Positions 31,396-33,805 of a stretch of DNA of 64,000 nt are shown here, piece after piece. The stretch spans positions 3,727,501-3,791,500 of the forward strand of contig NZ_CP031416.1 of assembly GCF_003367375.1 (NCBI RefSeq), written 5' to 3'. The DNA comes from Gallaecimonas mangrovi. GTDB lineage: Bacteria; Pseudomonadota; Gammaproteobacteria; Enterobacterales; Gallaecimonadaceae. Every line of letters begins with the position of its first letter. The first letter of the stretch is position 1. The notes under the pieces are model-generated. The model saw only the letters and a list, made by a program, of their open reading frames with translations, had not been told where the DNA came from and ran no database searches. A program made the position numbers and the translations under genes.

Positions 31396-31785
31396 ATGAC
31401 ACATTTAGAATACGTCACCAACCTGATGGCAGACCTTGGCAACCCTGAGCGGCCCATCAGCACGCTTGCCGACTACTTCTGCGCGGACTACGTACAAAAA
31501 GTGGACGGTAAAACATTGAATTTAGATGACTTTCTAAACCATGCCAGCGCCCTTCGCAGCCAACTGCAAAGCGCCAAAGTGCGCTTTATCGAACACCTTG
31601 AGCAACCTGGGAAGCTGGCCACCTTACACGAGGTAGAGGCACTAAAAACCGACGGCAGCCGCGCCCGGCTCCAGGTTTATGCCTTTTGGCACTTTAGCCA
31701 TGACGGCAGGCTGCGCACGGTTAATGAAGTCAGCCGGGTATTGGAAGGCAGCCAGAGCGACAGTCAGTTGGCATCCGTTCGCTAA
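31396..31785 (+). CDS. SnoaL/NTF2-like protein
   Basis: A 129-residue single-domain protein with the cone-shaped NTF2/SnoaL pattern (ADYFCADYVQKVDGKTLNLDDFLNHASALRSQL; RARLQVYAFWHFSHDGRLRTVNEVSRVL). These act as isomerases, hydrolases or ligand-binding proteins. It follows CCTAACGGAGCACC with a usable ribosome-binding site (GGAG). Divergent from an AraC-family regulator, so it is possibly regulated by it. No residue set for a defined reaction is seen. Confidence 0.78.
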   Translation: MTHLEYVTNLMADLGNPERPISTLADYFCADYVQKVDGKTLNLDDFLNHASALRSQLQSAKVRFIEHLEQPGKLATLHEVEALKTDGSRARLQVYAFWHFSHDGRLRTVNEVSRVLEGSQSDSQLASVR

Positions 31786-31811: not shown

Positions 31812-31840
31812 AAAAAAAACGCGCCTTAGTGAGAGGCGCG
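31812..31840 (-). terminator. Terminator of the first 63-aa gene
   Basis: On the minus strand CGCGCCT/AGGCGCG with a loop, followed by a run of T (A on the plus strand at 31812-31819). Confidence 0.85.
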
Positions 31841-31880
31841 ATAAACAGCAGAAAAAACGGGGTATAGAAATTTTTTAGGG

Positions 31881-31904
31881 GGTTGGCGACGTTTTTCGCC
31901 AACC
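31881..31904 (-). promoter_or_regulatory. 3'-UTR hairpin of the first 63-aa gene
   Basis: GGTTGGCGA and TCGCCAACC (31881-31889/31896-31904). The same hairpin recurs in the same position behind the paralogue at 32530-32553. Confidence 0.8.
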
Positions 31905-32131
31905 GACACGAGGACAGTAAAAATTAGTGGCTGTGGCTACGGCGGTGGCCGTGGTGCAGCTTGCTCATTTCTGTCCGGAAGAAGCCTTTTACTTTTGCTT
32001 TAACGCTGGAACCCAGTTGTGCCAGAAATTCGCTACGGGCGATTTTGGCTTGCTGTACGTAGTAGTCGACGTCGATTTTACCGGTGTGGTCCAGTTTCAA
32101 TTCAGTGTTGTTCATGGTGCCATCCTCGTGT
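31903..32131 (-). repeat. Duplicated 229-bp gene unit, copy 1
   Basis: The unit contains the 63-aa gene at 31924-32115. The left border has ACACGAGGA on the plus strand (31906-31914) and the right border its complement TCCTCGTGT (32123-32131), which on the minus strand is the ribosome-binding site of the gene. Both ends therefore carry inverted copies of the same 9-mer. Copy 2 is at 32553-32782. Confidence 0.65.
31924..32115 (-). CDS. Small protein of a tandem paralogue pair (63 aa)
   Basis: The protein (MNNTELKLDHTGKIDVDYYVQQ and onwards) has a Tyr/Gln-rich segment, a basic helix (AQLGSSVKAKVKGFFRT) and a histidine-rich tail HHGHRRSHSH. The neighbour at 32572-32763 shares over half of its residues in the same order (IDVDYYVQQAK/VDVDYYVAQAQ; AQLGSSVKAKVKGFFR/SQLGASIKTKVKAFFR; HRRSHSH/HRHSASH). 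The family reminds me of RSP_7527-type small proteins of unknown function, an unverified association. The His tail may bind metal. Translation starts at ATG 32115 behind the ACGAGGA ribosome-binding site. Confidence 0.75.
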   Translation of the reverse strand: MNNTELKLDHTGKIDVDYYVQQAKIARSEFLAQLGSSVKAKVKGFFRTEMSKLHHGHRRSHSH

Positions 32132-32445
32132 GGGGAGTTGCTTAATTTCTACACTGCAAATGGTAGTTCGCCTTCCCCCTTTCCAAAAGCGATCCTTTCT
32201 CACGTTAAAGTTGAATTTATTTCATCATTTTAATTTAAAGGCAGGCTACACTTTAGCGTTATGCAGAAAGTAAAAATTCATAACTACATGTTATTAAACA
32301 ATAAAATTATTATTTCACGCCGTAATGGCTGTCCAAGCCGTTTTCTAGAAAGCCCACAAAGCTTGATTTAAATCATCCATTGCCAACAAATTCACTGGCC
32401 TTTCAATACACCGGTGTTCTCAGCGCTTTTCGCTGTATTTTTTGC

Positions 32446-32472
32446 AAAAAAAAACGCGCCTATTGGCGCGTT
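32446..32472 (-). terminator. Terminator of the second 63-aa gene
   Basis: On the minus strand AACGCGCC/GGCGCGTT around AATA followed by nine T, a canonical intrinsic terminator. Confidence 0.9.
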
Positions 32473-32529
32473 CAATATGCAACAAATGACATTGCTAGAA
32501 GGAAAGGGATCGATAGAAATTTTCAACTC

Positions 32530-32553
32530 GGTTGGCGACAGGAGCCGCCAACC
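32530..32553 (-). promoter_or_regulatory. 3'-UTR hairpin of the second 63-aa gene
   Basis: GGTTGGCG (32530-32537) and CGCCAACC (32546-32553), identical in the stem to the hairpin behind the first copy. Confidence 0.8.
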
Positions 32554-32782
32554 GACACGAGGAAGGAAAATTTAGTGGCTAGCGCTGTGGCGATGACCGC
32601 CAGACAGTTTTGCGCCTTCGACGCGGAAAAAGGCCTTAACTTTTGTCTTGATGCTGGCGCCTAATTGAGAAAGGTACTCGCGACGTAGTTGCTGGGCTTG
32701 CGCGACGTAGTAGTCAACGTCAACGTTACCAAAGCGGTCCAGTTTGATGTCGGTTTTGTCCATGGTGCTGTTCCTCGTGTCG
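32553..32782 (-). repeat. Duplicated 230-bp gene unit, copy 2
   Basis: Bounded by a perfect 12-bp inverted repeat: CGACACGAGGAA at 32553-32564 and TTCCTCGTGTCG at 32771-32782. The right copy contains the ribosome-binding site of the gene. In the mRNA the sequence behind the stop codon is therefore the exact complement of the leader. Confidence 0.75.
32572..32763 (-). CDS. Small protein of a tandem paralogue pair (63 aa)
   Basis: Starts MDKTDIKLDRFGNVDVDYYV; the ATG is at 32763 with CACGAGGA as ribosome-binding site. The upstream in-frame extension to 32859 is unlikely because it would run through this leader. It shares the domain order of the copy at 31924 (DVDYY.AQA segment, basic helix, His/Ser tail HRHSASH). 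Both units have the same hairpin and terminator behind them, showing that a whole transcription unit was duplicated. Function unknown. A LysR gene starts 130 nt away on the other strand and could control it. Confidence 0.75.
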   Translation of the reverse strand: MDKTDIKLDRFGNVDVDYYVAQAQQLRREYLSQLGASIKTKVKAFFRVEGAKLSGGHRHSASH

Positions 32783-32893
32783 AAATAAAGTTGGTTAATT
32801 TCTACACGGCGAATGTTACTGGCAGCACCCCAGTTGAAAAAGCGAAGCTTTCTAAGCAAAATGCTGAGAATAATTCAGCAGTCAGGATCCCTC

Positions 32894-33805
32894 ATGCGCC
32901 GTCTACCTCCGCTAAACGCTCTCAGAGTGTTCGAGTCTTCCGCCAGAAACGCCAGTTTTGCTGCCGCTGCTGAAGAACTTTTCGTCACAGCCTCGGCGGT
33001 CAGTCACCAAATTAAAACCCTTGAAGAATATTTGGGGGTGTCACTGTTCAGCCGTAATAAGCGCAGAGTGGAGTTAACCGCCGCCGGTGAACAGTATTTA
33101 ACCTCGATTAAACACGCCCTGGACGAAATAGAAGCCGCCACCCAGCGCCTGGCGACCAGCCAGGAAAACAACGTGGTGCAAATCAGTGTGGCGCCCAACT
33201 TTTTAATTCGTTGGTTAATGCCGCGCATGGCGCGCTTTCAAGAGCAGTACCCGGACGTGGAACTGCAAATCAACGCCTCTATGGGCCTCATTGACTTTAA
33301 CCGCGCTAGCACTGATATGGCCGTGTATTTTGGCAACGGCGAGTGGGAAGACATCGAGATCCACTTTTTACGCAAGGTGATGCTGATGCCGGTGTGTAGC
33401 CCCAAGCTGGCCACTAGCCGCTTGCCACTGGATAAACCCGAAGACTTGCGTAACCACACCATTATTTATGTCTCCAAACGCAAGTATGAATGGGAGAACT
33501 GGCTAAAGCAGGCCGGTGTACCCAACCTAAAACCCAAGGGCAGTATGCAAATTTCCAGTGGCCAGTTGGCTACCGCCGCCGCCCAAGAGGGCCTGGGGGT
33601 TGCCCTGGCCGACAGCACCTTAACGTCGCGGGAAATCGAGTCTGGCCGCTTGGTCGTACCCTTTGATATCAAGCTCGACACCTTAAAGGCCTTTTATCTG
33701 GTTTATCGTAAAAACCGGCCGTTAACCACGGGCATGAAAGCCTTTAAAGAATGGGTAATGGCGGAAATGCAGGCGCCTGACGCCCTGGGTGAAACCCCCA
33801 ATTAA
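32894..33805 (+). CDS. LysR-family regulator (GcvA-like)
   Basis: From ATG 32894 (AGGA upstream) the product has 303 residues. The HTH region MRRLPPLNALRVFESSARNASFAAAAEELFVTASAVSHQIK... is typical of the GcvA/AmpR subgroup (P-LNALR-FE-aar-S...AA-EL-vT-sAvSHQI). The substrate-binding domain begins near 90 (VVQISVAPNFLIRWLMPRM). GcvA controls glycine cleavage genes in enterics, but no gcv genes are here and this subgroup is large, so the target is open; the divergent 63-aa gene is a candidate. Confidence 0.88.
   Translation: MRRLPPLNALRVFESSARNASFAAAAEELFVTASAVSHQIKTLEEYLGVSLFSRNKRRVELTAAGEQYLTSIKHALDEIEAATQRLATSQENNVVQISVAPNFLIRWLMPRMARFQEQYPDVELQINASMGLIDFNRASTDMAVYFGNGEWEDIEIHFLRKVMLMPVCSPKLATSRLPLDKPEDLRNHTIIYVSKRKYEWENWLKQAGVPNLKPKGSMQISSGQLATAAAQEGLGVALADSTLTSREIESGRLVVPFDIKLDTLKAFYLVYRKNRPLTTGMKAFKEWVMAEMQAPDALGETPN

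Follow-up and report, generated by a model that had tools for sequence, protein, structure and literature searches.

Tandem RSP_7527-family genes of Gallaecimonas mangrovi with 3' UTRs complementary to their own Shine-Dalgarno sites: a probable built-in brake on translation

Two tandem copies of a 63-codon gene in Gallaecimonas mangrovi are each followed by a 3' UTR that is complementary to the Shine-Dalgarno (SD) site of the same mRNA. Related species keep this SD/3'-UTR pairing, and for this reason the unit probably carries a built-in translation brake. Both proteins belong to the RSP_7527 family (NCBIfam NF046098), a family in which a small-protein gene and a structured 3' UTR recur together.

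The window, that is, the whole stretch of 64,000 nucleotides that was analyzed, carries the two genes on its minus strand (Table 1). Copy 1 lies downstream of copy 2, and copy 2 adjoins a divergent LysR-type gene. The order of elements given in a preliminary description of this DNA was found in both units. In full, each unit starts with a leader with GUGUAGAAAUUAA, which is followed by the SD site CACGAGGA, the gene, the complement UCCUCGUGUCGG, a hairpin, AAUUUCUAU, and lastly a terminator-like hairpin that carries a T run. The complement sits 8-9 nt past the stop codon in copies 1 and 2, and in copy 2 the inverted repeat is indeed a perfect 12-mer. The hairpin of both units is built from GGUUGGCG...CGCCAACC, and in both copies the GGTTGGCG hairpin stands immediately 3' of the anti-SD arm. 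A second complementarity, which the preliminary description had overlooked, is also present in both copies and connects the leader's GUGUAGAAAUU with AAUUUCUAU on the far side of the hairpin. The copies align all the way from the promoter side through the terminator, with conserved islands at both strands of each helix. Transcript starts were placed by eye just upstream of GUGUAGAAAUU; a promoter scan found no site at these assumed starts (two promoter-like sites in the region vs 1.3 expected). The two proteins are 59% identical. They share the His-rich tail that had been described, a trait that does not extend to the two orthologues in the genus, which have short tails ending in H. A stretch of 24 bases that lies between the hairpin and the terminator of copy 2 (32482-32505) has a 96% identical match elsewhere in the same genome (G000:C1:202927-202950, locus L194, E 0.0012).

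Table 1. Positions of the elements of both units, of the neighboring regulator gene, and of one candidate target (window positions unless a contig is named)
Feature	Position	Strand	Remarks
Copy 2 gene, 63 aa, RSP_7527 family	32572..32763	-	NF046098 37.4 bits, cut-off 26; position relative to LysR as in G001 and G003
Copy 2 leader arm CGACACGAGGAA, includes SD site	32771..32782	-	
Copy 2 3'-UTR arm UUCCUCGUGUCG (anti-SD)	32553..32564	-	Perfect 12-bp complement of leader arm
Copy 2 3'-UTR hairpin CGGUUGGCGGCUCCUGUCGCCAACCG	32529..32554	-	
Copy 2 outer helix, leader strand GUGUAGAAAUU	32797..32807	-	
Copy 2 outer helix, 3'-UTR strand AAUUUCUAU	32513..32521	-	
Copy 2 terminator-like hairpin, T run	32452..32473	-	
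Copy 1 gene, 63 aa, RSP_7527 family, tandem duplicate	31924..32115	-	NF046098 34.1 bits, cut-off 26
Copy 1 leader arm CCCACACGAGGA, includes SD site	32123..32134	-	
Copy 1 3'-UTR arm UCCUCGUGUCGG (anti-SD)	31903..31914	-	92% complementary over 12
Copy 1 3'-UTR hairpin GGUUGGCGAAAAACGUCGCCAACC	31881..31904	-	
Copy 1 outer helix, leader strand GUGUAGAAAUU	32144..32154	-	
Copy 1 outer helix, 3'-UTR strand AAUUUCUAUAC	31862..31872	-	
Copy 1 terminator-like hairpin, T run	31820..31840	-	
Divergent LysR-type regulator, neighbor of copy 2	32894..33805	+	Pfam HTH_1 + LysR_substrate
TolC gene start region (L097)	G000:C1:877796-877814	-	Candidate trans target, 12-nt match to copy 2 3' UTR

The genus was sampled with five genomes, G000 to G004, where G000 is the one with the two copies. 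Three of them hold the gene, namely G000 (twice), G001, and G003, and it was not found in G002 and G004. The best match to the LysR gene reaches 41% in G002 and 39% in G004, neither of which is close, vs 86% in G001 and 85% in G003. Among six relatives with both genes, the small gene and the LysR gene are linked in G001, G003, G566, and G782 and unlinked in G442 and G519; in G001, G566, and G782 they again stand divergently side by side. The position of copy 2 beside the LysR gene is probably ancestral. Between the small gene and the LysR gene, an operator-like dyad can be seen within the intergenic region 32764-32893 and in the equivalent region of locus L005; it is perfect over 11 bp in G003 (TGTTGAAAAAG-CGAGC-CTTTTTCAACA) and degenerate in the window.

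Conservation of the repeat in orthologues had been put forward as a check of its significance. Both orthologues retain the pairing, although the two strands have each changed at the helix edge, and it is kept in all four genus units (G003 ACGAGGAA/UUCCUCGU, G001 CGAGGAGCA/UGCUCCUCG), where the helix starts 7-13 nt past the stop codon. Six core pairs are invariant across the four. The first position past the core pairs in every unit, as U-G in copy 1, A-U in copy 2 and G003, and G-C in G001. The following two positions form G-U and G-C in copy 1 and C-G and A-U in G001, whereas copy 2 and G003 have no pairs there. Three positions on the opposite flank of the core are paired in both copies; of these, G001 mismatches one and G003 two. 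G003 and G001 lack one to three flanking pairs. These pairs were counted on an ungapped register, because a MAFFT alignment of the joined leader and 3' UTR misplaced gaps beside the SD site. The true register pairs 41 of 48 cells, and slides of 1-4 positions pair 14 to 26. When leaders were assigned to 3' UTRs in all 24 ways, each leader with its own 3' UTR gave the largest total of SD-helix lengths (42, next 39), and the same assignment was again the largest for the six flanking positions only (17 of 24 cells, next 16), in a test that cannot do better than 1 in 24. With n = 4 sequences, the covariation at the helix edge is suggestive and falls short of proof.

The strength of the pairing was expressed as the longest Watson-Crick helix covering the SD site that the final 30 nt of the leader can form with the initial 40 nt of the unit's own 3' UTR, a measure that was adopted only after whole-duplex energies had proved unspecific. 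The helix comprises 9 pairs in copy 1 (12 with G-U pairs), 12 in copy 2 (13 with G-U pairs), 8 in G003, and 9 in G001. As controls, 243 crudely called ORFs of at least 100 aa with an SD site were drawn from 400 kb of the same genome, in 20 stretches, plus the window; this set holds no short genes. An SD helix of at least 8 pairs was found in 0 of these 243 genes and one of 7 pairs in a single gene, and a helix of at least 8 pairs anywhere in the same leader/3'-UTR window occurred in two. When 3' UTRs were shuffled with dinucleotides preserved, the observed SD helix was reached, per 3000 shuffles, by 3 for copy 1, 1 for copy 2, 31 for G003, and 23 for G001. The energy of the whole duplex (45 nt of leader with 110 nt of 3' UTR) was matched, per 1000 shuffles, by 8 and 1 for copies 1 and 2 and by 150 and 145 for G003 and G001, neither of which stands out. 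By this energy, all four leaders score equally or slightly better with the 3' UTR of another unit than with their own.

In all four genus mRNAs, folded with 3' UTRs truncated to 112, 122, 52, and 90 nt, the SD/anti-SD helix is part of the minimum-energy structure. Against 100 shuffles each, the transcript stretch of copy 2 was more stable than every one (z -3.96), and the copy 1 stretch was more stable than 98 (z -2.58). The calculated probability that core SD nucleotides are paired to the 3' UTR is 0.94-0.98 for copy 1, 0.98-1.0 for copy 2, 0.98-1.0 for G003, and 0.31-0.69 for G001, so that the predicted occlusion of the SD site is weaker in G001 than in the other units. With the 3' UTR removed, the mean unpaired probability of the SD core is 0.36-0.53.

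We infer from these features that the unit may limit its own translation through SD occlusion. Once the full transcript is made, the 3'-UTR motif UCCUCGUG would pair with the SD region CACGAGGA and close the mRNA end to end, and in this species the second helix, farther upstream in the leader, would assist. In an mRNA closed at the SD region ribosomes would be unable to load, and translation would be confined to nascent or opened transcripts. The duplex would be exposed to RNase E and/or RNase III, and a cut may free the 3' UTR as an sRNA like UdsC, which is described below. The freed 3' UTR could then block the same SD site in trans, on both copies. Action on the paralogue is possible to judge by duplex energy, which is -25.0 for the copy 2 leader with the 3'-UTR seed of copy 1 vs -22.4 with its own seed. 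In hok-type mRNAs, which are inhibited by folding back, the 3' end gives step-wise temporal control of translation, and the proposed mechanism is similar in this respect.

The preliminary description had already read the repeat as a translational switch. The pairing kept in both orthologues, the sRNA-yielding 3' UTR of the family's R. sphaeroides member, and the high SD-pairing probability in three of the four units agree with this part of it, in which the effect on translation is a prediction. Counted against SD occlusion are the small base of four units from a single genus, a core without variation, the GUGUAGAAAUU outer helix being confined to the two paralogues, and the chance that ribosomes finish so short a gene before the pairing can form. 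SD occlusion as a means of negative autoregulation, acting in cis on the complete mRNA and perhaps also in trans once the 3' UTR has been freed, is given a probability only a little better than even, lowered somewhat by whole-duplex energy, which does not favor the unit's own 3' UTR. A more elaborate picture would be a one-gene feedback module, in which only nascent mRNA is translated, the finished mRNA is locked by two helices around the hairpin, the 3' UTR freed by RNase silences the paralogue and mRNAs such as tolC, and the small basic protein binds this RNA and sets the balance. Taken as a whole, this module is speculative and rather improbable.

The 3' UTR could also be chiefly a trans-acting sRNA with an anti-SD seed for other mRNAs, its match to the own SD site being secondary. 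This reading is unlikely in our judgment, although it has several points in its favor: UdsC acts on rpoHII, duplex energy does not rank the own 3' UTRs as best partners, and the leader of the TolC gene (NCBIfam NF007002) matches the copy 2 3' UTR perfectly over 12 nt (GACACGAGGAAG), their duplex having an energy of -22.8 vs -22.4 for copy 2's own site. Candidate targets were drawn from the 24 ACGAGGA...ATG sites of the genome. With the copy 2 seed, the start site of L098 gives -22.3, and L093, a site without a long reading frame, gives -21.9. These matches of tolC, L098, and L093 serve as leads only in a search for trans targets. A seed selected mainly for other mRNAs fits poorly with the first flanking position, which pairs with the own leader in four of four units and does so by three pair types. 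Nor are ACGAGGA-type start sites enriched in the genome (24 vs 26 for the reversed control).

Alternatively, the 5'-3' pairing may mainly protect or shape the mRNA, with a minor effect on translation, as has been reported for B. subtilis hbs (PMC7821165). The second helix links the upstream leader to the 3' UTR in both copies, and the fold of G001 also has an outer closure, formed by two other runs of four pairs. However, G003 has no outer closure, and the helix that is common to all four units covers the SD site itself, which makes mRNA shaping a distinctly doubtful main role.

Complementarity by chance, or as a by-product of the common SD sequence, is very unlikely. Purine runs like the SD site do recur across genomes, helices as long as those of G003 and G001 arise in about 1% of shuffles, and the whole-duplex energies of these two units are unremarkable; against this stand the control genes, none of which has such a helix, vs four of four genus units with proteins that are 51-59% identical to copy 1.

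Least credible of all, with next to no probability, is a small mobile unit, also suggested alongside the switch, with the repeats as its ends. In its favor are two copies flanked by inverted repeats and the gene that borders copy 1 on the side away from copy 2 (31396-31785), for which the 3-kb loci of G001 and G003 show no counterpart next to the unit. These points are outweighed by a genome search in which the exact repeat occurs nowhere else and the unit, beyond its two copies, gives only three matches of 22-29 bases, and by similarity between the copies that continues past the repeats into the promoter side and the terminator. A MITE-like unit was rejected in the same search for repeat and unit, where dispersed copies were absent. 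The lack of a third copy, and the fact that G001 and G003 each have just one copy, next to their LysR orthologue, point to local tandem duplication of the whole unit.

Membership of the proteins in the RSP_7527 family is clear for both copies, which score above the curated cut-off of NF046098; the G001 protein also exceeds it (30.1 bits), and that of G003 falls under it (23.6 bits). For the window proteins, Pfam gave no match over its cut-off, and a Pfam comparison at E up to 1 found DUF1127 neither in them nor in eight members of the family. Rfam yielded three matches in the window segment 31700-32900 and three in nine loci of relatives, all of them under the gathering threshold. A search for viral relatives returned 23 pattern matches and no true relative. 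At E up to 0.001, NF046098 was found in 21 of 398 genomes of a phylum sample (15 over the cut-off) and in 53 of 198 genomes of bacterial family f73 (45 over the cut-off), which we take to be of the Rhodobacter kind. Family matches are also present in 57 of 99 genomes of bacterial family f49. A six-member profile (A1) matches 42 of 48 genomes in the genus to which G442 belongs; proteins identical to those of named loci (L042/L068 and L035/L069) suggest that this genus is Marinomonas.

Outside the genus, an SD helix of at least 7 pairs was found in 0 of 94 measured units, the longest having 6. These units came from fetched loci and included 34 of alphaproteobacterial type, 30 of family f49, and 30 of the G442 genus. 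The set of 34 consists of 30 f73 loci (28 new and two met before) and five phylum-sample loci, less L149, which gave no unit. Start codons of the 94 units were chosen by a script, and L150 was evidently misread; the remaining phylum-sample loci, ten named loci, and the G782 group were inspected by eye only. On these sequences the anti-SD brake is not a family-wide trait, and the anti-SD form is seen in this genus only. The feature that recurs in the family is the small-protein gene with a structured 3' UTR.

Other conserved elements were noticed in these relatives. In Marinobacterium, a different 7-nt match links UCUACUC just past the SD site to GAGUAGA at the gene end in five of five named loci. 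Loci of this type with the match are L036-L039, L041, L174, and L175, and in the last two the motif is kept despite a moved stop codon. The 3' UTRs of Marinomonas-type loci (L046-L075) contain a conserved hairpin, CCC-GTT-CCG-GATCGA ... TCGATC-CGG-AAC-GGG, in which L046, L048, and L054 have changed both strands together (CCT/AGG). Its pattern fits 19 of the 35 loci given, with one further row picked on the wrong strand, and four such loci scanned against Rfam gave no match. A box, TTGATCGTTTG / TTCATCGTTTGTGCAA, lies upstream of the genes and is common to Marinomonas-type and G782-group units.

Two known kinds of RNA meet in this unit, namely a 3' UTR that pairs with the SD site of its own mRNA and a 3' UTR that yields an sRNA. 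New here is the combination of own-SD pairing with an RSP_7527-type gene, present across species. The open-licence papers found on RSP_7527 all concern R. sphaeroides, and nothing was found among such papers on this Gallaecimonas unit. The mRNA of RSP_7527 in R. sphaeroides is approximately 300 nt long, and its 3' UTR yields the 67-nt sRNA UdsC (PMC9779115), for the maturation of which RNase E, RNase III, PNPase, and Hfq have been named (PMC9779115, PMC8625941, PMC6238624). UdsC binds the rpoHII transcript in vitro and lowers the expression of an rpoHII reporter; in the main text of that paper, the terms "autoregul" and "own mRNA" do not occur (PMC9779115). The window units resemble RSP_7527-UdsC in the protein family, the short mRNA, and the structured 3' UTR, which stands directly behind the RSP_7527-family gene and ends with a terminator. 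In contrast, UdsC is an sRNA excised by RNase E that acts on rpoHII, whereas release of an sRNA from the window unit is a prediction. The two also differ in that no SD helix of at least 7 pairs was found in the 34 alphaproteobacterial-type units, a set that may or may not include R. sphaeroides itself.

The closest precedent for the pairing is icaR of S. aureus, where the 3' UTR carries an anti-SD motif that base-pairs with the SD site of the same mRNA, blocks the initiation complex, and creates a substrate for RNase III (PMC3868564). Its authors weigh action in cis against action in trans and cite hok as a temporal parallel (PMC3868564). The window units have the same kind of complementarity between 3' UTR and own SD site. 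They differ from icaR, which has a 3' UTR of 391 nt and a motif that is absent in S. epidermidis (PMC7821165), in that the helix of the window genus begins 7-13 nt past the stop codon and is kept in all three gene-holding genomes. Pairing of a 3' UTR with its own 5' region has been described for few bacterial mRNAs, those named being RNAIII, icaR, and hbs, and close relatives reportedly retain neither the 3' UTR of hbs nor the motif of icaR (PMC7821165). OppZ and CarZ of V. cholerae are released by RNase E from long operons and autoregulate in trans as sRNAs (PMC7398697), unlike the window unit, which is a single tiny gene and for which sRNA release is a prediction. The ccaF1-CcsR (CIN1) loci, in which a small protein with a DUF1127 domain (CcaF1) has been described as cotranscribed with downstream sRNAs, are similar in combining a small-protein gene with a downstream RNA and different in that the window proteins lack DUF1127.

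Cis and trans action of the 3' UTR cannot be separated from sequence. A short unit that is easily rebuilt, a natural pair of paralogues, and a pairing that is present across species would together let these two modes of action be separated directly.
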